64,000 nt of DNA, from the NCBI GenBank assembly GCA_025916675.1, contig CP098402.1, forward strand, positions 1,111,205 through 1,175,204, written 5' to 3'. Below, piece after piece: positions 6,835 through 24,945 of this stretch. Origin of the DNA: Phycisphaera sp. GTDB taxonomy: Bacteria > Planctomycetota > Phycisphaerae > Phycisphaerales > UBA1924. Each line of letters begins with the position of its first letter. Position 1 is the first letter of the stretch. The translations under genes were made by a program, and so were the position numbers. The notes under the pieces are model-generated. The model saw nothing but the letters and a program-made list of their open reading frames with translations. It was not told the DNA's origin and did not search any database.

Positions 6835-6838
<4 letters not shown>
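6218..6838 (-). CDS. Histidine/aspartate-rich lipoprotein of the metal-efflux operon
   Basis: 206 residues. A lipoprotein signal ends in LALAGC with Cys23 as the lipidated residue. Residues 24-100 are a His/Asp/Gly-rich, probably disordered region (repeated DGSTH and HxHxD patterns) typical of metal-chelating linkers. The C-terminal ~100 residues form a conserved domain with HLIVKLPYNDNGATVVRAWIG and a PDPLPENTMWWIEIE segment. The start ATG overlaps the TGA of cusA by ATGA, so translation is coupled. Its position as last gene of an RND efflux operon points to a periplasmic metal-binding accessory. A paralogue with the same C-terminal domain lies at 39789-40313 next to a broken cusA. Function is inferred from context; the family name is unknown to me. 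Confidence 0.85.
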
Positions 6839-10041
<3,203 letters not shown>

Positions 10042-10061
10042 GGGTGGAGTCTCGCTTTCAC

Positions 10062-11468
10062 TTAGTGCTCGCCGTGGAAGGTGCCGTCGGCGTGGAAGTG
10101 GCCGCCCTGCTGGCTGACCCCGCTCTGCTCGCTGGCCAGCTTGAGCTCGTACGCGCCGTCGAGGACGACCTCGTCGCCCAGGGACAGGCCGCTGTTGATC
10201 GCCACCCATCGGCCGTCGTCCACGCCCAGGTCGGCCTCGACGCGGATGGCCTTGTTGGGGTCGCTGGGGTCGCGGCGGAAGAAGACGTGCGTGATGCCGT
10301 CCTTGACCACGGCGGTGCGCGGGATGGCCAGCGCCGGGCCGCCCGTCGTCTCGGCCACGACCTCCAGGAACGCCGACACGCCCGGCCGGATCCAGGTCCG
10401 CCCCTCGGCGGGCGTGGCCAGCAGCGTTACGGTGCGCTGCTGGGGGTGCGCCTCGAGGCCGATGGTCACGGTGGCCTGGACGCCATCGCTTAACGGGATG
10501 CCCGGCGTGGTCGGCGGCACGATGCTCGCCTCGGGCGTGGCGCCCAGGCGGGCCAGGTCCGACTGCAGAGCCATCGCGCGGAAGCGCACCTTCTCAGGGT
10601 CGATCGTCGAGAGCACGAGCGAGGGTGCCTGGGCGAACGAGCCGTCGGTCAGGGCGAGCGCCTCCACCACGCCGGCCCCGGTCGCGCGCACCTCGATCCA
10701 GTCGATCAACCGGTAAGCGGGCACGGCCTGGCCCTCGTGCCGGGCCTCGGCGGCGAGCTGCGCCTCGGGGATGCCGGTGGCGACCGACGCCCGGTGCAGG
10801 GCGTGCTCGCGGGTGCGCTGCGCGTTGGCCAGCGCGGTCTCGGCCTGGCGCCGCTCGGCGCGCAGGCGGGGCAGGCTGGCCTCGAGTTCGGCCGTCTGGC
10901 CTTCCAACTCGGCGTTTCGCGTCTCGGCCTGCGCCAGCGACGACAGCCGCTCGCGCATGATGGCCAGGCGGCGCTCGGCCTCGTCGATCCGCGCCCCGGC
11001 CACGTCGATCGCGGCCCGGGCCGACTCGATGTCCTGTTCGCCCATGATGATCTCGTGCTGCAGCTCGGGCCACGCCGGCGAGCGGAAGCGGTAGAGCACG
11101 TCGCCCGTTTCGACGCGTTGGTACTGATCGACTTCGAGTTGCACGGTGCCGGGCAGCGTCAGGCGGTACTCGTGCCGCGCGAGCGGCTGGAGCTCGAAGG
11201 CCCCCGGCACGCGGATGGTGCCGTCCACGCGCCTCCGCTCGACCTTGGCGAAGGTGATGCCCAGGTTGCTGCGCACGGTCGAGGGGATGTCGATGCGGTT
11301 GGTCGCCGCCGTGGACTCCTGGGCCGGCTCGGCGGGCTCGGCGCCGCGGTTGGAGCAGCCCATCGTCGCGAGCACGAGGCTCGCCAGGAGCATCGCGAGG
11401 ACGTGCCGGCTGCGCGTCGTGGTCGCGGTGTTCGTTGCGGCGATTGTGGGGGTGTTCGTCGTGGTCAA
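10062..11468 (-). CDS. cusB: Efflux RND periplasmic adaptor (CusB/HlyD family lipoprotein)
   Basis: 468 residues. The N-terminus has a signal with lipobox ending at Cys38 (LVLATMGC). The membrane-fusion organisation is clear: lipoyl-like half domain (VPGAFELQPLARHEYRLTLP), a long coiled coil (about residues 125-220, rich in Ala/Glu/Arg heptads), second lipoyl half, and beta-barrel (RPGVSAFLEVV). The C-terminus ends in HFHADGTFHGEH, a His-rich tail likely to bind metal. It joins CusA in the inner membrane to the TolC-like channel. Its ATG overlaps the upstream channel gene's TGA by ATGA, showing translational coupling. Confidence 0.92.
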   Translation of the reverse strand: MTTTNTPTIAATNTATTTRSRHVLAMLLASLVLATMGCSNRGAEPAEPAQESTAATNRIDIPSTVRSNLGITFAKVERRRVDGTIRVPGAFELQPLARHEYRLTLPGTVQLEVDQYQRVETGDVLYRFRSPAWPELQHEIIMGEQDIESARAAIDVAGARIDEAERRLAIMRERLSSLAQAETRNAELEGQTAELEASLPRLRAERRQAETALANAQRTREHALHRASVATGIPEAQLAAEARHEGQAVPAYRLIDWIEVRATGAGVVEALALTDGSFAQAPSLVLSTIDPEKVRFRAMALQSDLARLGATPEASIVPPTTPGIPLSDGVQATVTIGLEAHPQQRTVTLLATPAEGRTWIRPGVSAFLEVVAETTGGPALAIPRTAVVKDGITHVFFRRDPSDPNKAIRVEADLGVDDGRWVAINSGLSLGDEVVLDGAYELKLASEQSGVSQQGGHFHADGTFHGEH

Positions 11469-12913
11469 GGTGTCACCTCGTCGGTGGTCGGGGTCGGGCC
11501 ATTGGTGTGCGGCGTGGGTGGGGCGGGCTCGGGTTGGTGCGGGGGATCGGGCGGCGGGCCGACCAGGCCGACCAGTTCGGCCAGCGCGAGCGACTCGTCC
11601 AGCCGTGCGTCGATCAGGGCCAGGCGGGTCTCGGCCGACCGCGACAGGCTCTCGAGCAAGACCAGGCCACCGCCCTCGCCCAGTTCCAGCAGGGCGCGTG
11701 CGTCGGCCATCTGCCGATCGACGATCGGGATGAATTCGGCTTCGATGGCCCGGCGCTGCTCGGTTGCGGCGAAGAGATACTCGGCCTGGGCGGCAACCGA
11801 TCCGGCAAGACGCTCGTAGGCCGTCTCGAACTCGGCCCGCGCCAGCTCGCGCTGCGCGTGCGCCTCGGCGATGCCCTGCTTGTTGGCGTTCAGGATGGGG
11901 ATGGGCAGCGAGAGCGACAGCCCGAGCAGCGTGTCGCCGCGATCGAATTCCGCCAGCGGGCCGATGGTCAGGTCCGGGTACTGCTCGCGCACCTCGCGCC
12001 GGAGCGTCTGCTCGGCGACCTCGTACTCCTCGCGCAGCCGCCCGAGCGTCGGGCTTCGCTCTGCCAGCGCTTCGGCGGTCAGACCATCGGGGTCAGCGTC
12101 CAGCACGAGCGAGGGCGTCAGCTCGAAGGGGGCCCCGGGCGAGAGGCCCAGCAGGCCGCGGAGCTCGTGCTCGAGCGCCACGGCCTCACGACGCGATCGG
12201 AGCCGGGCTTGCCGCAGGCTTGCCCGCTCGATGACGAACAGCGCCGCCTCGGTCCGCGGCATCTCGCCCGCGTCGGCCAGGCTGGCCGTCGAGTCCACCA
12301 GGGCGTCGATCGACCCGAGCAGCGCGGCGGCCTGCTCGTCCTTGAGCCGGACTGCCGACCAACGCAACCACGCTTGCCGAACACGGGTGCGCGTCGCCCA
12401 TTCGAGCTCGGCCACGCGGGCCAGCTCGGCGGACAACTCCGCGTCGGCCCGGTCCTTCTCGGCGCCCAGCCGGCCCGAGATGGGGATCGTGAAGGCCAGC
12501 CCGGGGGTGACCTGCCACGGGTTGGCCGCGCTCTCGGTGACGGTCAGCACGTCGAGGCCGAACTGGGGATCCTCCCACAGGCCCGCGTGCTCGGCCGTGG
12601 CCAGTGCGACGCCGGCTCGCAGCCGGGCCAAACGCAAGTCCGGGTTAAACACAAGGGCGACCAGTTCGGCCTCGGCCAGCTCCAGCCCGTCGGCGGGATC
12701 GAAGGCCGTGGGCTGGCCGGCCTGGGCCAGGCGGCGGGCGAACGCTCGGACCGGCTCGTCGCCGGCGGTGCGCTGGCGCCAGGCGTCTCCGTGGGCGGGC
12801 AGGTCCAGCGGCCTGGGCTGGTAGCTCTGGCAGCCGGGCAGGATCGCCGCGACGCCCGCGAACGAGAGCAGCGCGCCGGCCAGGCCGGCGGATCGGGATG
12901 GATGCGTGGGCAA
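11465..12913 (-). CDS. TolC-like outer-membrane efflux channel (CusC family lipoprotein)
   Basis: 482 residues from a TTG at 12913, chosen because a GGAG lies eight bases before it and because it places a lipoprotein signal (LSFAGVAAILPGC, Cys28) at the N-terminus. An ATG at 12994 in the same frame would add 27 residues of no clear value. The body is the duplicated outer-membrane efflux fold: long alpha-helical stretches such as AELSAELARVAEL and the repeated EAVALEHELRGLLGLSPG and AHAQRELARAEFETAYERLAGSV. It is the first gene of the efflux operon and provides the outer-membrane exit duct for CusAB. The C-terminus is proline-rich. Confidence 0.9.
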   Translation of the reverse strand: MPTHPSRSAGLAGALLSFAGVAAILPGCQSYQPRPLDLPAHGDAWRQRTAGDEPVRAFARRLAQAGQPTAFDPADGLELAEAELVALVFNPDLRLARLRAGVALATAEHAGLWEDPQFGLDVLTVTESAANPWQVTPGLAFTIPISGRLGAEKDRADAELSAELARVAELEWATRTRVRQAWLRWSAVRLKDEQAAALLGSIDALVDSTASLADAGEMPRTEAALFVIERASLRQARLRSRREAVALEHELRGLLGLSPGAPFELTPSLVLDADPDGLTAEALAERSPTLGRLREEYEVAEQTLRREVREQYPDLTIGPLAEFDRGDTLLGLSLSLPIPILNANKQGIAEAHAQRELARAEFETAYERLAGSVAAQAEYLFAATEQRRAIEAEFIPIVDRQMADARALLELGEGGGLVLLESLSRSAETRLALIDARLDESLALAELVGLVGPPPDPPHQPEPAPPTPHTNGPTPTTDEVTP

Positions 12914-13016
12914 GGGTCGTACTCCGAACGTGTGCGTTGAGACCGGATCGGGGTGCCGGGCGTGCCCGCTCGCAGCGGGCGCACGCAACAGCACGGCTGG
13001 AAGGGGCCAGCCGGAT

Positions 13017-13732: not shown

Positions 13733-13750
13733 TTGGCACGCTCCTTGCAT
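13733..13750 (+). promoter_or_regulatory. Sigma-54 (RpoN) promoter, -24/-12 elements
   Basis: TTGGCACGCTCCTTGCAT matches the sigma-54 consensus YTGGCACG-N4-TTGCW at every defined base, with the GG at 13735-13736 (-24) and the GC at 13747-13748 (-12) exactly 12 apart. Transcription should start near 13760, about 23 bases before the ATG of the first cassette gene, and an AGGAGA ribosome site follows. The only sigma-54 activator in the window is encoded at the far end of the same cassette. Confidence 0.8.
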
Positions 13751-13782: not shown

Positions 13783-14736
13783 ATGCACGACCTTGATCGC
13801 ATCCAGGCGGAATTTGAAGACGACACGGGATTCGATGCTCGCGATCCGTTCGAGGATGAGTTCGAGGCGGACGACCTCGACGATGACCAGATATTTGATC
13901 ACGCTTCTCGCGAGAGCGCTGATGATAGTGATTTGTATGACGAGGACGATGACGACGACCTCGAAATGGCGGACGAGTTTGATGATTCGTATGACGAGAA
14001 TGGGTCCGATCCGGCCTCGGTGGACGACGACGACCTTCCGCTGGACGAAGACATGGAGATGGAGCTGGCGTCCGAGCTCCTCGCCGCGACCGACGACGAG
14101 CAGCTCGAGCGCACCATGCACCGGATCGTCCACGCGCGAACCCACCGGCGTCGTCCACCGAGGCTTGCCATCGATGCGGATGACGACGAGTTCGACGATC
14201 TCGACATGGACGATGGCGAGGACGACGAGCGTCGACGCCGACGGCGCAGAAGGCGGCGCCGACGCGGCCGCCGGCGGCGTGGCTTCCTGGGCAAGGCGTT
14301 AAAGGGCATCGCCAAGAAGGCGCTGCCAATCGTCGGCGGCGCCATCGGATCGGCGATTCCGGTGGTCGGCACGGCAGCCGGCGCCGCGCTGGCCAGCGGC
14401 GCCGGGAAGGCCTTCGGCCTCGAGCTGGAGGGCCTGAGCCCCGAGGACCAGGAATTCGAAGTCGCCCGACGCATCGTGCGACTCGGGGCCGAAGCGGCCG
14501 CCGAGGCCGACGACATCGACGAGGCGGTCGACGACGAGACGGCGGCCAAGGTGGGCATGATCCGTGCCGCCGGCAAGCACGCCCCGGGCGTCATGCCGCG
14601 TCCTGGCTCGATGGGTCGGGGGGCGGGGGGCGGGCGCCGTCGGCGTCGATCCCAAGGCCAGGCCGCGAACACCGGTGATGGCCAGTCCGGCCGCTGGGTG
14701 CGCCGAAACGGCCGCATCGTCCTCTTAGGTCTGTGA
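13783..14736 (+). CDS. Acidic / arginine-rich / glycine-zipper protein, first gene of sigma-54 cassette
   Basis: 317 residues from an ATG with AGGAGA eight bases before it. Residues 1-80 are extremely Asp/Glu-rich. About residue 85 a short helical motif ELASELLAATDDEQLERTM begins. A second acidic stretch (~125-145) is followed by some 18 nearly uninterrupted arginines (~150-168). Then comes a hydrophobic glycine/alanine block, FLGKALKGIAKKALPIVGGA and SAIPVVGTAAGAALASGAG, which looks like a glycine-zipper membrane-active segment. A GLSPEDQEFEVARRIVRLGA motif and a basic C-terminus complete it. There is no classical signal peptide or enzyme motif. The sharp charge segregation suggests a protein that binds nucleic acid, inserts in membranes or is packaged. 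The conserved-looking ELASELL and LSPEDQEFEVARR motifs suggest a real family, whose role I do not know. Confidence 0.8.
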   Translation: MHDLDRIQAEFEDDTGFDARDPFEDEFEADDLDDDQIFDHASRESADDSDLYDEDDDDDLEMADEFDDSYDENGSDPASVDDDDLPLDEDMEMELASELLAATDDEQLERTMHRIVHARTHRRRPPRLAIDADDDEFDDLDMDDGEDDERRRRRRRRRRRRGRRRRGFLGKALKGIAKKALPIVGGAIGSAIPVVGTAAGAALASGAGKAFGLELEGLSPEDQEFEVARRIVRLGAEAAAEADDIDEAVDDETAAKVGMIRAAGKHAPGVMPRPGSMGRGAGGGRRRRRSQGQAANTGDGQSGRWVRRNGRIVLLGL

Positions 14737-14752: not shown

Positions 14753-16021
14753 GTGCCACTGTCCCCACCAGTCCGAGCCCACCTCCTGCAGGAAGCCGCC
14801 ACGCTCCACGAGCGGGTTCGCAACCTGATGCCGTTCGATCTGCACATGGCTGCCCTCCCCGCGGCGAGCATCTCGGCCCCGGCCCGCCAGCTCATCGACG
14901 ACTTCATCGAACACGGGCGGCGTGACGTTCTGGACCGTCTCGCGGAGTACTGCAACTGGCTGCAACAGGAGCCACGCGCGGACGACGCCGAGGCCCAGCG
15001 GCGCCTGACCTTTATCCGACTGCGCACGGGAACGATGCTCTCACGATTCGATCTGTACGCGGACGTCTTGACGCAACGAAGCGAGCACCGCGTGGGCATC
15101 TGGCTGGCCGGTCTCGAGGCCGCCGCCGAGGATGGCCTGGGCATCGAGGGCGTGGCATCGCCGCCGGTGGTCTGCTATCTCGATCGAGGGGGCGGCGCCG
15201 CGATCCGCCGGGCCCGCACCCGGCTGCCCGGCGGCGAGTTCAACCCGGTCGCGCTCGTGCGCATCCCGCGAGAGCGCATGATCGGCAGCGGGGTGTCTTC
15301 CTCGCTCATCCACGAGGTCGGCCACCAGGGCATGGCCCTGCTCGACCTCGTCCCCTCGATCCGCCCGACCATCGCGGGCTTCGAGGCCCATCGCCCGCAG
15401 GTGTGGTCCCTGTGGCGGACCTGGATCAGCGAGATCCTGGCGGACTTCTGGTCGGTCGCGCGGGTGGGCCCCGCGTCGGTGCTCGGCGTGATGTCCGTGG
15501 TCAGCCTGCCGCGGGCCTTCGTCTTCCGCATCGGCGTGGACGATCCGCATCCGTTCCCCTACATCCGCGTCCGGCTGGCGTGCGCGATGGCCCAGGAACT
15601 CTACCCGCATCCGCAATGGCGCCACCTCGATGGCGTCTGGCAGCGGCTGTACCCGCTCGAAGGGCTGGATGGACGCAGCCGCCGCATCATTGCCGATCTG
15701 TCGGCAACCATGCCAGCGCTCGCCCGGCTCATCGCCGAGCACCGCCCACCCAAGCTCGGCGGACGCAGCCTTCGGCTCGTTCTCGCCTGCCCGTGCAAGG
15801 GCCCCGAACGGCTGCGAAGAACCATTGTCGAGATGCGAAGAGGCAGCGCAAGGCTGGACGACCGATCGCCCTGCCGTGCCCTCGCGGTGCTCGGCCAGGC
15901 GAAGTTCGACAAGCAGCTTAGCGCTGCGCAAGAGACTCGCATCCTCGAGAGGCTGCTGACACACTGGGCGCTGACGCGCACCCGCAACGAAGTGAACACC
16001 TGCGCTGCCCCCGCGGCGTAG
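14753..16021 (+). CDS. Putative zinc metallopeptidase of the sigma-54 cassette
   Basis: 422 residues from a GTG with GGGGAG ten bases upstream, 16 bases after the preceding stop. Residues 187-191 read HEVGH, the HExxH zinc site, with SSLI before it. Glu227 in WISEILADF, 36 residues on, is placed like the third ligand of gluzincin peptidases. The N-terminal 150 residues are helical; the C-terminus is basic with a CPCKG motif. No signal peptide. A soluble zinc peptidase is the best reading, with the neighbouring cassette proteins as possible substrates. The substrate is unknown and the assignment rests on the motif geometry alone. Confidence 0.75.
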   Translation: MPLSPPVRAHLLQEAATLHERVRNLMPFDLHMAALPAASISAPARQLIDDFIEHGRRDVLDRLAEYCNWLQQEPRADDAEAQRRLTFIRLRTGTMLSRFDLYADVLTQRSEHRVGIWLAGLEAAAEDGLGIEGVASPPVVCYLDRGGGAAIRRARTRLPGGEFNPVALVRIPRERMIGSGVSSSLIHEVGHQGMALLDLVPSIRPTIAGFEAHRPQVWSLWRTWISEILADFWSVARVGPASVLGVMSVVSLPRAFVFRIGVDDPHPFPYIRVRLACAMAQELYPHPQWRHLDGVWQRLYPLEGLDGRSRRIIADLSATMPALARLIAEHRPPKLGGRSLRLVLACPCKGPERLRRTIVEMRRGSARLDDRSPCRALAVLGQAKFDKQLSAAQETRILERLLTHWALTRTRNEVNTCAAPAA

Positions 16022-16038: not shown

Positions 16039-17550
16039 ATGACACAACTGAACGTGACCCAGTCTCAAACATTGCCGCCAACGACCGACGACCAAGGGCT
16101 CTGGAGTGCCATCCGCAACCGCAGTGAAGCAATCTCGTTCGACCGGTACGCGGCGTTCCTGCAGGCGGTGTTCTGCGATGAACAGGAGCCAACGACGACA
16201 TGCTCGTCGATCGCACGGGGCGACGATGGCCTGTTGAATCAGAAGGACGAACTCAAGAACATCGGCCATGGCACGAAGGCGTATCAGACGCTCAAGGCCG
16301 CCACCGAAGTGTTTTTGTTGCTGAATACCGGCATGTACATCCATGAGGGTGGCGCTACGAGCACGTATGCCCGCTCGGAAGACACGACCCCGGGCGGGAC
16401 GGTCTACGTGCCAGCGGCACCGTGCGCCGAGAATCCGTGCGCCGATGCCGCCAACCTAGGAGCATCGGGGCCGCTCCATAACGAAGACAGTGAGGCGACG
16501 CGCATGGCCAACCACGAGAGCCTCGATCTCAAGGCTGTCCAGGAGTTGCTCGAGAAGTATCTTACGGATACGCACGCCATCCTGCCCTACCTCGATCGCA
16601 TCGTGAACGCACTCAACCTCAGCATCGATGACGGCGGCAACGCCTTGTGCGCGCCGCTGCTCGCACGCCGCGTGCATTGCCCCCTCATGATCGAGCTCAT
16701 CTGGAACTACTGGCACGAGGCCGGTGGCCAGATTCAGACCATGAAGGCCATCACGCGGCGGTTCCAGAACCGCCGGGCGTGCGACGCGAACGACCCGCTG
16801 GCCGACCTGGACATCGATCCGCTGCGCCCCCTGGGCAACATCCTGTGGGGCTACGTGCAGGACGAGAGCAACCAGCTCAGCGTGCTCCGCCGCGTGTACG
16901 AGTACGACCACCATTATGGCATGAGTTTGCGTGGCAAGGCCATCCCCCGGATGTGCACCGCCGACAGCCGCTCGAAGTTTATCGCCGGCTTCCACAACCT
17001 GCTCCGCATGGCCCTGGCGTACTACAAGGCCGCCGAGGACACGCAGGTCATCCCCGATACCTTCCCGATGCTCAACAGCTTGAAGGAGGTCCACCTGCTG
17101 CTGGCCGAGGGCGCCGGCAACCAGTTCGGCGACCTGCCCCACCAGTCGCGCATCGAAATGCTCGTGGAGCAGTGGATATTGGGACGCGAAGAGATGCGCG
17201 AGTTCCTGCGCGGCCGCGTGATGGTGCCCTACCCCGCCGCCTTCATGGGCCGCGTCGACACGATGCGCAAGCTCCAGGGCTGGGGCGACACCTCGTTCCG
17301 CTACTTCTACGAGCTGGCGACCTTCGGCGAGCGCCTCCTGCTCTCGATCCGCTTCGGCGACTGGAGCGCGACCTCCAGCGCCGCGAGCGCCGCGAACTGG
17401 GCGAACTACTGGCGCGAGGAGATCCAGGCGTACGTGCACTCGTATCGCGTTGTCACGGGCGTGGACCTGTCGGACACGAAGGCGGACCCGGCGACGCTGC
17501 GGCGGATCGTGACGCCGCCGCAGGAGCTGCTGTCGTCAACTCGCAGCTAG
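16039..17550 (+). CDS. Conserved hypothetical protein of the sigma-54 cassette, 503 aa
   Basis: 503 residues, ATG preceded by AAGGAG at the right distance, 17 bases after the peptidase gene. After a polar N-terminus with several cysteines (CSSIARGDDGLLNQKDELK) the protein is largely helical, with well-formed segments such as CPLMIELIWNYWHEAGGQI, DIDPLRPLGNILWGYVQDE, YEYDHHYGMSLRGKAIPRM and LAEGAGNQFGDLP. The strongly patterned tryptophans, tyrosines and charged pairs look like a conserved globular family, not a shadow frame. No catalytic motif, signal peptide or membrane helix is evident. Given its length and position it may be the core structural or effector component of the cassette. Function unknown. 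Confidence 0.75.
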   Translation: MTQLNVTQSQTLPPTTDDQGLWSAIRNRSEAISFDRYAAFLQAVFCDEQEPTTTCSSIARGDDGLLNQKDELKNIGHGTKAYQTLKAATEVFLLLNTGMYIHEGGATSTYARSEDTTPGGTVYVPAAPCAENPCADAANLGASGPLHNEDSEATRMANHESLDLKAVQELLEKYLTDTHAILPYLDRIVNALNLSIDDGGNALCAPLLARRVHCPLMIELIWNYWHEAGGQIQTMKAITRRFQNRRACDANDPLADLDIDPLRPLGNILWGYVQDESNQLSVLRRVYEYDHHYGMSLRGKAIPRMCTADSRSKFIAGFHNLLRMALAYYKAAEDTQVIPDTFPMLNSLKEVHLLLAEGAGNQFGDLPHQSRIEMLVEQWILGREEMREFLRGRVMVPYPAAFMGRVDTMRKLQGWGDTSFRYFYELATFGERLLLSIRFGDWSATSSAASAANWANYWREEIQAYVHSYRVVTGVDLSDTKADPATLRRIVTPPQELLSSTRS

Positions 17551-17597: not shown

Positions 17598-18467
17598 ATG
17601 ACTTGTACTTGTGCGCCTTCCAACGGTATTGGCGATCAACCTCTGGCAAATGAAGAGGAAGTGTTCGAGCTGGTCATTCCGCGTCAGCAGGCGTTGGTGA
17701 ACTATGAAGAAGAGGCCTTTCTAGGCTTTGGTAAGAAGAACAAACGCAAAGCATCTGGAAAGAAGCGGCAGGCAAGCAAGTCCAGCAGTCCCACCAAGAG
17801 GGCACGCAATAATCCTTGGAAACATGGATTCGAAGACATGCAGAGCATGGAGTCAGAGTACGACAGCGCAATGGAGAATCAGGACTCGGAGACTTCCGAG
17901 CCCTCGTTTGTAAAGTATGCGGATCAGCAACTCCGAAGTTGGGCAGGTAAAGTTAAGACAACGTCAAGCCTTAGGCATGTTGAGCGTGAGAATCACCGGC
18001 TTATGAGTCTGCGATATGTGCGAATGGGCGTAATCGCGGAGCGCATTGAAAGGCTGGTCGCTCATTATACTCGGTCAGGCGGAAACATTTCAACGGGTGC
18101 TGCAATCTATGCAGGGCAATACTTGTCAGCCGATGCGGATCTGAAGGACAAGGAACGCCAAGTGAAGCGTTTTATGAAAGAGTCGGAGAAAATCGGGATA
18201 CGAGCTTGGAATCAATCTGCGACACATGGCGGCACGAACAGCATGAGCAAAGATGCATGGGAGGACAATGCCATCAGGATGGCAACCGGTAACTTCCGAA
18301 GTGATCCAATCCTTGCACTGATTATTGCTGCGCCAGATCAACTCGCAGAAATCGATGCTGTAGCAAAGTACAAAGGCATGGTGGAGCAGATCCAGCGCCT
18401 TTGGAGGCAGAAATACGAGCGGTATTCTGGTGAATCGTACAAGCGTGTTGAGAAAATCAGACGCTAG
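17598..18467 (+). CDS. AT-richer hypothetical protein, last gene of sigma-54 cassette
   Basis: 289 residues with AAGGAGT before the ATG. The N-terminus has CTC and an acidic EEEVFELVIPRQ, then a strongly Lys/Arg/Ser-rich stretch (GKKNKRKASGKKRQ), and a helical C-terminal half (RMGVIAERIERLV ... LADLKDKERQVKRFM-like heptads) without enzyme motifs. Codon use is visibly different from every neighbour: many codons end in A or T, whereas flanking genes are strongly GC-ending. This suggests recent acquisition or a fast-evolving, perhaps cargo- or immunity-like, member. Its TAG shares a CTAG palindrome with the TAG of the convergent regulator gene. Function unknown. Confidence 0.7.
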   Translation: MTCTCAPSNGIGDQPLANEEEVFELVIPRQQALVNYEEEAFLGFGKKNKRKASGKKRQASKSSSPTKRARNNPWKHGFEDMQSMESEYDSAMENQDSETSEPSFVKYADQQLRSWAGKVKTTSSLRHVERENHRLMSLRYVRMGVIAERIERLVAHYTRSGGNISTGAAIYAGQYLSADADLKDKERQVKRFMKESEKIGIRAWNQSATHGGTNSMSKDAWEDNAIRMATGNFRSDPILALIIAAPDQLAEIDAVAKYKGMVEQIQRLWRQKYERYSGESYKRVEKIRR

Positions 18468-19786
18468 TCGGAGGTGGCCTTCCTCATCTGCACCGCCCGC
18501 TCGCTCACCCCCAGCACCTCCGCCGCACGCCGAGAGTTCCCATCGGCGTCCTCGAGCGCAACGCGGAGGGCCAACGCCTCCGCGTCTCGCCCGATCGCCT
18601 TCATGCCGTGGCCCTGGGCCAGGCCGCGGCGAACGGAGTCCTTGAATTGCTCGTCGGGCCAGCCGGCTTGGCTCGTACTTGATCGATCCTCTGGAGGAAT
18701 GTCCCCCGGCGTGATCGGCCCAGCCCCGCCGTGCCGCGTCATGACGCGGACCATGAGCTGGCGCAGCTCGCGGAGGTTGCCCGGATACGCGCGTTGCATG
18801 AGGTATCGATCGACCGCCGGGCACATCTCGATGGGGGCAGAGCCGCCCGAGACCATCGCGGCGAAGTGGCGTGCCAGCAGGGGGATGTCCTCGGTGCGTT
18901 CACGCAGGCTGGGCAGTTGGACGTGCCAGCCGATGGCCCGGTGATACAGGTCCAGGCGGAATCGTCCCTGCCCGACGTCCTCATCCAGATCGCGGTTGGT
19001 CGCGCAGACGAGCCGGAAGTTCGCCCGCTTCCACTGCACGGCGCCAACGGGCTTGTACGCCCCGTCCTCGAGCGAACGGAGCAACTGGGCCTGGATCGAC
19101 ATGGGCAGCTCGCCGAACTCGTCCAGGAACAGCGTGCCGCCGTGGGCGAGCGCGACGGCGCCCTCGCGCTCGGCGATCGCCCCCGTGTAGGCTCCGCGGA
19201 CGTGGCCAAACAGTTCGCTGCCGGCGAGCTCGGGCGACACGGTGCCGCAATCGAGCACGACGAACGAGCCACGCTTGTCTCGGCCGTCAAGCGCATGGAT
19301 GAGCCGCGCGGCGAGTTCCTTGCCGGTGCCGCTTTCTCCGGTAATCAGAACATTCGCGCTGCTGAACCGCGCAATCTCGACGAGCCGCCGAAGGCACGCC
19401 ACCCACGCGTGGCTGGTGCCGAGCACGGTCCGTTGTACCGCGTCTGAGGCCACGAGCGAGTCGATATCCGAAAGCCGTTGGGCCCGTTCGACCACCGCCG
19501 CGGCGGCCGCCTCCTCGTCTAATCCTTCGATCACATCGAGTGCGCCCGCATCCATGCAATCCCATGCGCTCTTCGGTGCAACATGATCTTGGCACACGAT
19601 GAGGTGTGGTACTGGATCTGAGGGCCCGGACTGACGAATATCTTCGGGCCGTTCGACAAGCGAGACCGCGAGCGTGACATCGGGGTCCGCTGCTTCGACC
19701 ACTCGCACATCATGGCTACGCAAAATGGCCTTGAAGCGTGCACGCCGGTCGGAACTGCTCGTGCTGCAAAGCAATACGCTGGCCAC
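18464..19786 (-). CDS. Sigma-54-dependent transcriptional activator (enhancer-binding protein)
   Basis: 440 residues from a GTG start. Residues 1-115 form a receiver-like domain that lacks the usual phospho-acceptor aspartate at the end of strand 3 (LIVCQDHV), so it is probably not controlled by a classical kinase. Residues ~120-345 are the AAA+ sigma-54 interaction domain: Walker A GESGTGKE (150-157), the sigma-54 contact loop GAYTGA (198-203, a conservative change from GAFTGA), Walker B GTLFLDEFGE (217-226) and an arginine-finger region NLRELRQL. The C-terminal ~35 residues are a Fis-type helix-turn-helix (SRRAAEVLGVSERAVQMRK). It faces the four-gene cassette that starts with a sigma-54 promoter, so it is very likely its dedicated activator. 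Confidence 0.92.
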   Translation of the reverse strand: MASVLLCSTSSSDRRARFKAILRSHDVRVVEAADPDVTLAVSLVERPEDIRQSGPSDPVPHLIVCQDHVAPKSAWDCMDAGALDVIEGLDEEAAAAAVVERAQRLSDIDSLVASDAVQRTVLGTSHAWVACLRRLVEIARFSSANVLITGESGTGKELAARLIHALDGRDKRGSFVVLDCGTVSPELAGSELFGHVRGAYTGAIAEREGAVALAHGGTLFLDEFGELPMSIQAQLLRSLEDGAYKPVGAVQWKRANFRLVCATNRDLDEDVGQGRFRLDLYHRAIGWHVQLPSLRERTEDIPLLARHFAAMVSGGSAPIEMCPAVDRYLMQRAYPGNLRELRQLMVRVMTRHGGAGPITPGDIPPEDRSSTSQAGWPDEQFKDSVRRGLAQGHGMKAIGRDAEALALRVALEDADGNSRRAAEVLGVSERAVQMRKATSD

Positions 19787-20958: not shown

Positions 20959-21633
20959 ATGCCCGCTCGCGATCCCATCGCAGAGAAGACCGCCGCACGC
21001 GACCCTCTTAGCCGCGTCAGCCTCGGCACGCAAACCACAACCCAACTGCTCGACGACCTCCGCGACCGGGCCAACGCCCCGGCGTGGGAGGCCTTCGACG
21101 CCCGCTATCGGCCGATCCTGACGGCCTTCGCGCACCGCCTGGGCTTCGCGGGCGACGATGCGGCCGAACTGGCGCAGCAGACCCTCGCCGAGTTCTCGCG
21201 CGCGTACGCGCAGGGTCGCTACCAGCGCGGGCAGGGCCGGCTAAGCTCGTGGCTTATCGGCATCGCTAGCAACGTCGGCTCGCAGCTGCGGCGCAAGAGC
21301 GCGCGCCATGGTGGGGCGGCCGAGTTCGATTCGCAGATCGATGGCGATGGGGTTGCGTGCGACGACGAGCGCGAGCTCCGGGCCGCGTGGGACCGCGAAC
21401 GCGACCGAGCCGCCATCGCCGAGGCGCTAACCGTCCTCCGAGACAATAGCCGCGTGAAGCCCCAGACCATGCGGGCCTTCGAGCTGTTCGCCATCCGCGG
21501 CGTGCCGGCCGAGGAGGTGGCGATCCAGTGCCGCATCTCGGTCGACGCGGTGTACGTCATCAAGAACCGGCTGACCGGCCGGCTGCGCGAGATCGTGGCC
21601 GAGCTGACCATCGCCTACGACGAGGGCGACTGA
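20959..21633 (+). CDS. ECF-type RNA polymerase sigma factor
   Basis: 224 residues. Region 2 is recognisable as ANAPAWEAFDARYRPILTAFAHRL followed in pattern by DAAELAQQTLAEFSRAY and RLSSWLIGIASNVGSQLRR (core-binding and -10 recognition). Region 4 near residues 165-210 has RAFELFAIRGVPAEEVAIQC and the helix-turn-helix RISVDAVYVIKNRLTGRLR. Planctomycetes have many such sigma factors encoded beside Ser/Thr kinases. Here the kinase gene starts with GTG directly after this gene's TGA (TGAGTG), so the pair is translationally coupled, and the kinase may control the sigma factor. The preceding ~20 residues before region 2 are poorly conserved, so the start could lie slightly downstream. Confidence 0.88.
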   Translation: MPARDPIAEKTAARDPLSRVSLGTQTTTQLLDDLRDRANAPAWEAFDARYRPILTAFAHRLGFAGDDAAELAQQTLAEFSRAYAQGRYQRGQGRLSSWLIGIASNVGSQLRRKSARHGGAAEFDSQIDGDGVACDDERELRAAWDRERDRAAIAEALTVLRDNSRVKPQTMRAFELFAIRGVPAEEVAIQCRISVDAVYVIKNRLTGRLREIVAELTIAYDEGD

Positions 21634-24600
21634 GTGCGCGCCTGCCCGGGCGAGGCTGAGCTCGAGCGGCTGGCGTCGATCGGTGGGAATTCGACCGATC
21701 GCGCCGATCGAAGCCTCCTGCGTCACGTCGAGCGGTGCTCGTCCTGCAGCGCGAGGCTCGAGACCGTCCGCGCCAACAACCGCTTCCTCGCGCACGCGGG
21801 CGGCGATCTCGCCGAAGCGCTCAACAGCACGCCAGCCCGAGCGACCAGCACGCCGGTGACCAGACCGCTCCCCGAACCGGGCACCGTGCCGGGCTTCCAG
21901 ATCATCGAGGAGATCGGCCACGGCGGGCAGGGCGTGGTGTACCGGGCCGTGCAGATCGACACGCGCCGGCCCGCGGCCATCAAGATGCTCCTGGCCGGCG
22001 CGTTCGCCACCAGCCGGCAGCTCCACCGCTTCGAGCGCGAGATCGAGCTGGCCGCCGGCCTGCGGCACCCAAACATCGTGACGGTGTTCCAGTCGGGCGT
22101 CGCCGCCGATGGCGGCCGCTACGTCGCGATGGAGTTTGTCCGGGGCGTGCCGCTCGACCAGTTCGTCGCCGAGACGCTCGGTCCGGCGGCGGGCACCGGC
22201 AGGGACAGGGCAGACGCGATCGTGCGGCTCATGCTCCAGGTCGCCCGGGGCGTGGGGCATGCGCACACGGCGGGTGTCATCCACCGCGACATCAAGCCGG
22301 GCAACATCCTCATCGATCCGCAGGGCGTGCCGCGGGTGCTCGACTTCGGGCTCGCACGCACGATCGCGACTGCCGGCGCAACGCAGACCCTTGTGACCCA
22401 GGACTTCGCCGGCACGCCCGCCTACGCCGCGCCCGAGCAGCTGAGCGCCGATCACGAGACCACCGACGCGCGCGGCGACGTGTACACGCTGGGCGTCGTG
22501 CTGTACCGATTGTGGACCGGCACCGCGCCCTATCCGTGCGATGGTCCGCTGGCGGTGGTGGTGCGGCACGTGGCCGAGACGCCGCCCACGCCACCCTCTC
22601 GCCACGTCCCGCGCCTGCCCGCCGACCTGCAGACTATCGTGCTGCGTTGCCTGGCCAAGGACCCCGAGCGTCGGTACGCCAGCGCCTCGGCGCTCGCCGA
22701 AGACCTCGAGGACTACCTGGCCGGCCAACCCATCTCGGCCCGGCGAGATAGCGCGACGTATGTGCTCTGCAAGCTCATCCTTCGGAACCGCGCCATATCC
22801 GCGGCGGCGGCGGTCGTCGCGATAACGGTGCTGCTCGCGGCGGTCGGGTTCGCCCTGCTGGCCGCCGACATGGACCGCTCGCGACGAGATGCCGAGGCGG
22901 CGCTGGCCGACAGCACCGTGCAGCGAGCCCGCATGATGGCCATCTCCGGCGATCCGAAGCGCGCCGAGACATTGCTCTGGGTCGAGGCCAAGCGGGCTGG
23001 CGTGACCACGGGCGACGAGGCGCTCTGGAGCGGCACGCCCGAGCGGCGCCGCTCCATCTGGTCGCTGGCCGAGTTCTACGCCCGGCTGCCCAGGATGATG
23101 CATGCGCGGACGGATGGCCTCTGCTCAAGCGTCGGCTTCGACATCGAGCGCCAGGAGCTCTGGGCCCTGCACGGCGACGGTTCGCGCTCGACGTGGTCGC
23201 TCGACGGGCAGTTCATCGAGCACACGTCCGCGCTAACACCGTGGGCCGAGACTGCGACGGCCAGCCCGAACGGGCGCTTCGTCGTTCTGCAGGGAGAGGG
23301 TCAGGCCCAGGTGTGGGACGCCAAAGAGCGCGTTGCCATCGCCCCGCCGTTTGCGTGCAGCCAGCCCGCGTACTACGCGCGGATCGACGACGAGGCCAAC
23401 GTAATCGCCTATGGCAATATCCCCGAGACGGGAGCCCTCCTCGTGGCCGATGCGCGCAGTGGCGCGGTGCTGGCCCAACTTGATCCCATGATCTCTGGGT
23501 ACGTGGTGCGTACCAGTGCTGCCGGCGAAGTCGAGGTGCTGGCGGGCACCAGGACCATGCCGGTCCCCCAGTTGCTCGCGGGACGCTCGCCCGACTGGAG
23601 ATTCGAGCCGTTGCCGGGCATTGGCGAGATGATGGACGCCAGCGTCATCGGCGGTATCCGCAACGTCACGCCCAACCGGGACGGCCGCCTCATCGCCCTA
23701 TCGGTCGACTGCCACCTCTACCTCTTCGAACGATCGCCCGAACCAACGCTCGTCGGCCACGCTGAGGTGCCCACCAAGGGCATCGACCGCCTCGCGTTCG
23801 ACGAGCGGGAGGGATCCATCATCGTGGCCGGGCGCGACGGGCTGCTGGCGCGGTTTGCGGTGCCGGGGTTGGAGCAGCGGGCGCTCCTCCACACCGGAAA
23901 CTTGCCATTCGCGCTCGCTTCGGCGGAGACGCCGCCGCTGGCTGCTCTGGCGATGATGGACGGCGGTGTGGCCGTGTATGCGGCGTCGAAGCATCCGTGG
24001 GTGACGACGATAGAATCTACGCCGTACACCCACGCATCGGTCGATGTCTCGATGAGTGGTGCCCTGGCTTGGGGCGACGACGCCGGCAAACTGCACATCC
24101 TGCCGCGGATTGGGGACGAACCGCTGGTCGTCGACGCGCACGATCGCGTCGTGACCTCCGTGGCGTTCTCACCCAATGGAGAGCGGATCGTCACCGCGAG
24201 CTTCGACGGAGCGATCCGAGAGTGGAGCATTGACGGCGAGCCGATCCGCGAGATCGCCGCCGGGCTCACGCCGATTTCGTCGGCGCGGTACTCGCCTGAT
24301 GGCCGATCGATCGCCTCGGGCCAGACCAGCGGCACCGTCCACGTGTGGCGCGATGGCCAGCCAGCCCTCGAACTGCTGGTGAACGCCTATCGCGTGCCCA
24401 TGGTCGCCTTCAGCCCCGACGGCCGCTTGCTGCTGTGCGCGGTCGTCAATCCGGACGCGGCCATGGCCAGCATCTTCGACCTGACAACGGGAACCAAGCG
24501 CTACGAACTCGGCGGGCATGGCATCGCGATTCGCGCCGTCGCGTGGTCGGTCGACGGAACCATGTTCGCAACCGCAGGAGACGACCGCACCGTGCGCATC

Positions 24601-24945
24601 TGGAGCGCTGCCGACGGTCTCGAACTGCAGGCCATCACCGGCCTGCCGTGGGGACCTTATGGCATCGCGTTCCATCCCGAGGGCTCTGTGCTCTTCGCCG
24701 TGGGACCGGGCGGCTCGGTCATCGTGGCCGATCCGTTGGCCGGCGTCGAGCTGGCCACGCTGCCCATCCACGAGCGTCACGTCTTCTCAATCGTGATTGG
24801 ACCCGACGGGGCCACGCTTTACACGTCTGGCGAAGATTCTTGGATCGGCGTCACCGACCTCCACCATCTGCTGCGATACATCCGTGGGAACGAAGCGTAC
24901 TGGCGCTCACAGGGAAGCCAAGACGAAGTGACGACACCCGATTGA
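21634..24945 (+). CDS. Zinc-finger, Ser/Thr kinase and WD40-repeat membrane protein
   Basis: 1103 residues. The N-terminus has an anti-sigma-like zinc motif HVERCSSC (His31, Cys35, Cys38). Residues ~88-370 are a eukaryotic-type kinase with GHGGQGVVY (95-103), AAIKM (Lys117), HRDIKPGN (~215), DFG and GTPAYAAPEQ; all active residues are present. A single transmembrane helix (~387-410, rich in Ala/Val) follows, and the rest (~490-1090) is WD40-type beta-propeller repeats, e.g. VTSVAFSPNGERIVTASFDG and AWSVDGTMFATAGDDRTVRI. The propeller should face the periplasm and sense a signal that is relayed to the cytoplasmic kinase and the sigma factor encoded immediately upstream. The GTG start abuts the sigma factor stop. 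Confidence 0.92.
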   Translation: MRACPGEAELERLASIGGNSTDRADRSLLRHVERCSSCSARLETVRANNRFLAHAGGDLAEALNSTPARATSTPVTRPLPEPGTVPGFQIIEEIGHGGQGVVYRAVQIDTRRPAAIKMLLAGAFATSRQLHRFEREIELAAGLRHPNIVTVFQSGVAADGGRYVAMEFVRGVPLDQFVAETLGPAAGTGRDRADAIVRLMLQVARGVGHAHTAGVIHRDIKPGNILIDPQGVPRVLDFGLARTIATAGATQTLVTQDFAGTPAYAAPEQLSADHETTDARGDVYTLGVVLYRLWTGTAPYPCDGPLAVVVRHVAETPPTPPSRHVPRLPADLQTIVLRCLAKDPERRYASASALAEDLEDYLAGQPISARRDSATYVLCKLILRNRAISAAAAVVAITVLLAAVGFALLAADMDRSRRDAEAALADSTVQRARMMAISGDPKRAETLLWVEAKRAGVTTGDEALWSGTPERRRSIWSLAEFYARLPRMMHARTDGLCSSVGFDIERQELWALHGDGSRSTWSLDGQFIEHTSALTPWAETATASPNGRFVVLQGEGQAQVWDAKERVAIAPPFACSQPAYYARIDDEANVIAYGNIPETGALLVADARSGAVLAQLDPMISGYVVRTSAAGEVEVLAGTRTMPVPQLLAGRSPDWRFEPLPGIGEMMDASVIGGIRNVTPNRDGRLIALSVDCHLYLFERSPEPTLVGHAEVPTKGIDRLAFDEREGSIIVAGRDGLLARFAVPGLEQRALLHTGNLPFALASAETPPLAALAMMDGGVAVYAASKHPWVTTIESTPYTHASVDVSMSGALAWGDDAGKLHILPRIGDEPLVVDAHDRVVTSVAFSPNGERIVTASFDGAIREWSIDGEPIREIAAGLTPISSARYSPDGRSIASGQTSGTVHVWRDGQPALELLVNAYRVPMVAFSPDGRLLLCAVVNPDAAMASIFDLTTGTKRYELGGHGIAIRAVAWSVDGTMFATAGDDRTVRIWSAADGLELQAITGLPWGPYGIAFHPEGSVLFAVGPGGSVIVADPLAGVELATLPIHERHVFSIVIGPDGATLYTSGEDSWIGVTDLHHLLRYIRGNEAYWRSQGSQDEVTTPD

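Follow-up and report, generated by a model that had tools for sequence, protein, structure and literature searches.

Which role does a protein with an extreme segregation of charge have at the head of a bacterial operon, and does this operon belong to a described system? Here, we address this question for a gene in a stretch of 64,000 nucleotides (nt) from Phycisphaera sp. (GenBank assembly GCA_025916675.1, contig CP098402.1, positions 1,111,205 to 1,175,204 of the forward strand), referred to as the window. The gene encodes a protein of 317 residues, which we call P1. In what is for now our preferred but tentative reading, an undescribed, sigma-54-controlled polymorphic effector operon has P1 as its signature protein, and P1 functions as an acid-shielded, membrane-active carrier that would be matured by ZN, a putative zinc metallopeptidase encoded next to it. 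The operon occurs in several phyla with a conserved order of charge in P1 and with polymorphic cargo, and P1 and the cargo both have acidic-then-basic N-termini. There is good support for the operon, from which we infer the mechanism.

P1 has a conserved order of charged segments

The open reading frame (ORF) at 13783-14736 (forward strand) is genuine and is present in a single copy in the genome. Its product has, in this order, an acidic head, a pair of helices with the ELASELL motif, a second acidic block, an arginine run of the form R12-G-R4, a cationic helix (GFLGKALKGIAKKAL), a Gly/Ala segment, a helix with the sequence LSPEDQEFEVARR and a basic end (SGRWVRRNGRIVLLGL). Residues 1-92 have 45 Asp/Glu and 3 Lys/Arg residues, corresponding to a net charge of -42. 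Residues 129-149 include 14 Asp/Glu and no Lys/Arg residues and immediately precede the arginine run at residues 150-166, in which 16 of the 17 residues are Arg. Thus, the charge segregation proposed in a preliminary description of the sequence, i.e. an acidic head, an arginine run, a Gly/Ala segment and then LSPEDQEFEVARR, is real, and the run is present with 16 instead of about 18 arginines and with the second acidic block directly before it. The longest uninterrupted stretch is 12 arginines, while the maximum among 20,000 shuffles of the same composition is 7. The codons of the run are a mixture of CGN and AGR, and between the window and a sister species 16 of the 17 residues are kept with nine synonymous changes and one replacement. 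Because of the mixed codons and the synonymous divergence, replication slippage is ruled out as the origin of the run; moreover, the retention of the residues despite the synonymous changes argues that selection, and not an accidental repeat, maintains the run. As judged by this pattern of substitutions, it is under purifying selection within the genus.

The Gly/Ala segment had been described as a hydrophobic glycine zipper. Its best 19-residue Kyte-Doolittle mean is 1.62 in the window (family median about 1.15), and a maximum of at least 1.6 is reached by four of 91 P1-type proteins. The segment is therefore weakly hydrophobic and a classical transmembrane helix is not indicated, in disagreement with a zipper of the transmembrane kind; interfacial or oligomeric insertion, or a role as a soluble adaptor, is possible.

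To identify relatives of P1, 84,980 species genomes were scanned with a three-row alignment, resulting in 44 loci in Pseudomonadota, Bacteroidota, Actinomycetota, Nitrospirota and Calditrichota. A few additional relatives are on plasmids of Rhizobium, Ensifer and Paraburkholderia. P1 relatives are scarce within the lineage of the window, and their distribution is patchy with four of 294 genomes in the same phylum and three of 299 in Pseudomonadota, i.e. about 1% (centre genomes counted). In a tree of ZN, the phyla mostly stay together. The patchiness may therefore reflect loss as much as transfer, and frequent recent transfer between phyla is disfavoured.

In an alignment of 50 P1 relatives, 47 have an acidic head with a negative net charge (median -19.5), and all have a positively charged C-terminus and, between ELASELL helices and Gly segment, a belt of positive net charge (median +8.5). 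The 18 residues that precede the Gly segment are cationic in 49 relatives and amphipathic beyond shuffles (p <= 0.1) in 43, where about five would be expected. Residues G189, G196, G200, E214, E224, E226 and W305 are invariant or nearly so. Runs of at least five arginines are confined to the window and its sister species; in place of the homopolymer, the wider family has amphipathic helices with mixed Lys and Arg residues. The preliminary description had named poor conservation of the arginine run among homologues as the finding that would speak against it. For the homopolymer, this is what we found; nevertheless, the order of acidic head, basic belt and Gly-rich segment is retained across phyla. 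On the basis of the alignment, we regard the arginine run as a genus-specific version of the basic belt and the charge order as family-wide. The invariance of the motif PEDQEFE is partly by construction, because the scan patterns contained it; in paralogues and in L070, a relative found via ZN, the motif varies (LSNEDREFE, LSPENQELE). P1-type proteins span 220-430 amino acids (aa) with a conserved C-terminal half, and two or three copies per operon are common. In two Nocardiopsis loci (L020 and L043), ZN is upstream and not downstream of P1, and P1 is a tandem double-domain protein.

An AlphaFold2 model of P1, based on an alignment of 37 sequences, has helices at residues 89-101, 105-121, 145-180, 196-210, 220-243 and 251-266 and a C-terminal hairpin at 304-315. 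The predicted local distance difference test (pLDDT) score is at least 90 for 105 residues; the head and the linker are modelled as disordered, and the Gly-rich stretch at ~181-195 is of low confidence. The preliminary description had also named a soluble fold of the Gly segment as a finding against it; with this stretch of low confidence between the helices at 145-180 and 196-210, the model is compatible with either outcome.

P1 is encoded in an operon with a conserved core

As had been stated in the preliminary description, P1 is the first gene after a sigma-54 promoter. The predicted box (TGGCACGCTCCTTGCA) fits the consensus at 12 of 12 positions and ends 33 nt before the ATG of P1. In 28 of 50 loci, the first P1-type gene is preceded by a box with at least 10 of the 12 positions, nearly always at a distance of 30-97 nt as measured from the start of the box. 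A sigma-54 activator is encoded in at least 28 of 52 loci; its gene usually lies at the distal end of the operon, on the opposite strand. With its exact predicted box and co-located activator, the operon in the window is thus predicted to be regulated by sigma-54. Among PADLOC models, RtcR_PspF2 (CARF_AAA_HTH) is the nearest to the activator in the window. The first 110 residues of this activator have no match and possibly represent a degenerate sensor domain.

Neighbours of P1 were detected with profiles built from the neighbouring genes. ZN, which contains an HExGH motif, is encoded beside P1 in all of 44 independently fetched loci. ORF3 is present in every locus with a sufficient flank; in L045 and L053, which lack it, the contig ends first. 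P1 and ZN are adjacent in 44, and ZN and ORF3 in 44, of 47 loci. A BioF/Kbl-type pyridoxal phosphate (PLP) enzyme is encoded in at least 37 and an Amidohydro_2 enzyme in at least 25 of 52 loci. These two counts and that of the activator are lower bounds because the loci end at about 8 kb.

ZN residues H187, E188, H191, E227 and D231 are invariant in 30 relatives. The protein fits the broad zincin signature, i.e. HExxH with a downstream Glu, which is retained in a homologue with 25% identity, and we refer to it as a putative zinc metallopeptidase. ZN has no Pfam match and lacks the HExxHxxQ-E signature of the Photorhabdus virulence cassette (PVC) metallopeptidases (DUF4157-type), having HExGHQ together with E227 and D231. 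The ORF3 model is all-helical (predicted template modelling score 0.81) with no convincing likeness to a solved or viral fold.

We found no significant match of P1, ZN or ORF3 in Pfam, NCBIfam, PHROGs or PADLOC, in line with the initial impression that P1 belongs to no known family; the best library rows are noise (FliG_M, E 0.4; tape measure, 0.025). Compared with the sequences of solved structures, ZN and ORF3 had no match, and the top rows for P1, designed helical proteins along with the tape measure protein of a phage (E 0.03-2), are read as matches of composition. In Foldseek searches, the P1 and ORF3 models had no match in the PDB, and the ORF3 model none in BFVD, at E <=0.001. The VIA Z maxima (P1, 4.4; ORF3, 3.2) gave no convincing fold; the list for ORF3 includes the alpha-pore toxins AhlB, MakB and ClyA, whose Z values are low and tied and which we do not use as evidence. 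No ZN relatives were found in viral contigs and no ORF3 relatives in phage records, and a phage origin was rejected on these grounds. The system is undescribed in the open-access literature searched by motif strings and operon-level terms, and may have been described elsewhere. The core families P1, ZN and ORF3 are absent from the curated libraries searched; we regard the core as new, and the mechanism is hypothetical.

More distant operons were also observed. In L068:1173-8475 (genome G269; same phylum, other family), a deep-branch operon encodes two P1-like proteins, ZN and an ORF3-like protein followed by a caspase (Peptidase_C14); of the two P1-like proteins, the second is encoded upstream of ZN, has a weak likeness to P1 and includes a C92/NlpC-like (papain-like) domain. 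In a second deep-branch operon, L069:2613-9411 (genome G324), an acidic-headed, Lys/Arg-rich protein is encoded upstream of ZN, and a 705 aa protein of unknown family and then a second protein with an HExxH motif downstream. The homologue with 25% identity to ZN keeps HEVGH and is encoded on a plasmid of Bradyrhizobium quebecense (L063:2162-11884) in a cassette with an S8 peptidase, a patatin-like phospholipase, a DUF2252 protein, a phospholipase D and two CHAT proteins. This looks like a separate conflict system that shares the peptidase family of ZN.

The operon carries a slot for variable cargo

Between the gene for ORF3 or the PLP enzyme and that for the activator, the operon has a slot for variable genes, here referred to as cargo. 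Domains found in 57 scanned cargo genes include 12 peptidoglycan-binding (PG_binding_1) domains, about 10 trypsin-type peptidases, five OmpA, four Amidase_2, four GIY-YIG and two DUF2272 domains, and GH25, glucosaminidase, YkuD, VanY, M23, M74, LCAT, an APOBEC-like deaminase and Ntox5 once each. In the same scan, 57 flanking control genes yielded a mixture of housekeeping families, each in at most two genes. In the window, the slot holds ORF4, for which no relative was found in any locus examined. At this position, the sister species has an unrelated protein that likewise starts with MTCTC and ends in a VanY domain, although ZN, ORF3 and the activator are 74-86% identical between the two species.

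The cargo proteins differ from their surroundings at the N-terminus. A hydrophobic N-terminal segment is present in none of 47 cargo proteins as opposed to 34 of 155 flanking ORFs. A CxCxxC motif near the N-terminus is present in 12 of 47 cargo and nine of 91 P1-type proteins and in none of 155 controls, and is possibly a metal-binding or sorting tag; examples from cargo and a third P1 paralogue are L016:4103, L019:14554, L029:11913 and L044:7755. Like P1, 21 of 53 cargo proteins have an acidic-then-basic stretch within 220 residues, whereas such a stretch is seen in three of the 173 flanking ORFs (p 2e-12, odds ratio 37; the ORFs were called mechanically, and related loci do not count as independent). 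L055 encodes a fusion of a P1-type domain with an OmpA-type cargo domain. The gene maps have no conserved small (immunity) gene after the cargo, with ORF calling being imperfect in GC-rich loci.

Table 1. Features of the P1 operon in the window
Feature	Coordinates	Strand	Remarks
Predicted sigma-54 (-24/-12) promoter box	13734..13749	+	12/12 consensus positions
P1, operon signature protein	13783..14736	+	317 aa
P1 acidic head	13783..14058	+	Residues 1-92; predicted disordered
P1 ELASELL helix pair	14059..14166	+	Residues 93-128; family consensus MELAxELLxVxxExELxQFLG
P1 second acidic block	14167..14229	+	Residues 129-149; insertion compared to most relatives
P1 arginine run	14230..14280	+	Residues 150-166; window and sister species only
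P1 cationic helix	14281..14325	+	Residues 167-181
P1 Gly/Ala segment	14326..14418	+	Residues 182-212; G189, G196 and G200 kept in at least 90%
P1 LSPEDQEFEVARR helix	14419..14511	+	Residues 213-243; E221 also (near-)invariant
P1 C-terminal basic hairpin	14686..14733	+	Residues 302-317; G303 also invariant; strands 304-308 and 311-315
ZN, HExGH putative zinc metallopeptidase	14753..16021	+	422 aa
ORF3, all-helical, unknown family	16039..17550	+	503 aa
ORF4, candidate effector (variable cargo)	17598..18467	+	289 aa; N-terminus MTCTC
Sigma-54 activator (AAA+ and helix-turn-helix)	18464..19786	-	Sigma54_activat E 2.6e-52; convergent, operon end

A model for the function of P1

In the model that we suggest, the sigma-54 activator would switch on the operon, and the acidic head of newly made P1 would mask the cationic helix and the Gly-rich segment. 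The co-encoded ZN would then remove the head, and the freed cationic, Gly-rich part of P1 would assemble on a membrane. The cargo, which lacks a Sec signal, would subsequently reach the envelope, either that of a target cell or the producer's own. The idea of a shielding head follows the logic of acidic pro-segments. A carrier or pore-forming function, as initially proposed for P1, remains the most economical reading because of the fusion of a P1-type domain to cargo in L055 and the C92 domain on the weakly P1-like protein in L068. As to which membrane would be the target, the toxin-type domains favour that of rival cells, whereas the recurrent proteases, and the fact that no immunity genes are evident, speak for self-lysis.

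Several observations weigh against this model. P1 and the other core proteins have no classical transmembrane helix, so no membrane channel is evident, and no cleavage site was identified in P1. ZN is considered a peptidase on account of its motif, and the exit of the cargo from the cell is a step that we infer. The 18-residue cationic helix of the window itself is no more amphipathic than shuffles and is one of the seven exceptions among the 50 relatives. Moreover, a recognisable sigma-54 box is missing in most Hymenobacter loci, and the PLP enzyme and the amidohydrolase have no role in the model and are both missing from the operon in the window.

Going one step further, the operon could encode a new delivery or cell-lysis machinery without contractile, type III or type VII parts, in which charge-shielded P1, once activated by ZN, carries or admits tagged, signal-less enzymes across a membrane, with the acidic-basic (and CxCxxC) N-termini as the tags. 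We hold this as a possibility and with less confidence than the reading of P1 as a signature protein and carrier. The operon is spread thinly over at least five phyla, and its peptidoglycan hydrolases, lipases, proteases and toxin-type enzymes have no known export route. If correct, this would be a previously unknown way to deliver enzymes to, or to lyse, bacterial cells, and further effectors could be found by the acidic-basic N-terminus, which would serve as a portable tag. The system is small and makes direct predictions on cleavage, vesicle leakage and tag-dependent release.

Comparison with known systems

The swappable-effector logic is established for polymorphic toxin systems (Zhang et al. 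2012, PMC3482391). In the P1 operon, too, a conserved type of N-terminus precedes exchangeable effector domains (peptidoglycan hydrolases, deaminase, Ntox5, nuclease-like GIY-YIG, OmpA), and the cargo is replaced between sister species such that variable effector domains are in a constant context. By contrast, the P1 operon has no recognised trafficking domain (type II, V, VI or VII secretion systems, PVC, TcdB/TcaC, MuF), no RHS or filamentous repeats and no evident immunity genes, and its P1-ZN-ORF3 core has no curated family.

The types of envelope-directed effectors overlap with those of the type VI secretion system (T6SS) and extracellular contractile injection systems (eCIS). The cargo of eCIS is likewise accompanied by an HExxH peptidase, the PVC-metallopeptidase (PMC3482391). 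Unlike the latter, ZN has HExGHQ and a downstream ExxxD rather than HExxHxxQ. Matches to Phage_sheath_1 and VipB are absent from 12 of 18 operon-carrying genomes, including two of the three congeneric ones; therefore, dependence on contractile injection by a T6SS or eCIS is rejected as a general rule. The genome of the window (G000) has a T6SS sheath gene, VipB, at C1:912591-913499, about 210 kb from the window.

As in holin-endolysin cassettes and with bacterial gasdermins, a candidate membrane-active protein adjoins signal-less peptidoglycan hydrolases and/or an activating protease. However, P1 lacks holin-type transmembrane helices, sequence and fold searches gave no match to such systems, and ZN and ORF3 were not found in phage collections. 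The P1 model has no convincing match in the PDB, and such a missing match is compatible with a gasdermin fold.

Alternative explanations

A self-lysis or abortive programme is an unlikely alternative to the carrier model, although several findings fit it. Here, P1 would be a protease-activated membrane disruptor with a holin- or gasdermin-like role, and the peptidoglycan hydrolases, lipases and proteases of the cargo would dismantle the producer, e.g. under stress or phage attack. The cargo lacks N-terminal signals as endolysins do and has no conserved immunity gene beside it, peptidases recur in the loci, including the trypsins and the caspase in the deep-branch relative, and the far ZN homologue sits in the patatin/phospholipase D/CHAT/S8-peptidase cassette. 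On the other hand, effectors against other cells are the more typical setting for the deaminase, Ntox5 and OmpA domains, the special N-termini of the cargo are unnecessary for lysis alone, and PADLOC has no model for the core.

We consider it rather improbable that P1 is a structural protein, not active on membranes, of a packaging or condensate scaffold, in which P1 and cargo would pair through their acidic heads and basic belts and so co-assemble the effectors into a particle or condensate released in another manner. The complementary charged blocks in both P1 and cargo would allow such pairing, and the frequent presence of two or three P1 copies per operon, the disordered head in the model and the weak hydrophobicity of P1 agree with it; yet the locus encodes no capsid, tube or sheath protein, and coacervation would not need features as specific as the conserved amphipathic helix and glycines.

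It is very unlikely that P1 is a large pro-bacteriocin with the head as leader, the cationic Gly-rich part as an antimicrobial peptide freed by ZN and the other genes as accessories. P1 shares with acidic-leader antimicrobial peptide and bacteriocin precursors an acidic pro-segment followed by a cationic, amphipathic, Gly-rich segment and an adjacent peptidase gene. However, P1 is far larger than precursors of bacteriocins or of ribosomally synthesized and post-translationally modified peptides, and its C-terminal half, with the LSPEDQEFE helix and the W305 hairpin, is constrained as strongly as the cationic part; also, the loci have no conserved ABC transporter or other exporter and no conserved immunity gene, and the cargo set would be left unexplained. 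Finally, P1 could be a protein of low complexity or one that binds nucleic acids, with a charge pattern that serves no specific function in the operon. This would fit the predicted disorder of head and linker and the genus-specific arginine run, but is highly improbable and, given the family and operon evidence, disfavoured, since core, gene order and charge order are conserved across phyla and the arginine run is under selection within the genus.

Other features of the window

At 20959-24945 (forward strand), a gene for a sigma-70-family factor, similar to those of the extracytoplasmic function type, is followed by one for a serine/threonine kinase that has WD40-like repeats; we saw no link between these genes and the operon. 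Directly upstream of the operon, at 6835-12994 (reverse strand), is a predicted heavy-metal efflux cluster of the resistance-nodulation-division type that comprises a pump, an adaptor, an outer-membrane factor and a small His-rich protein, with the pump as the inner-membrane component.
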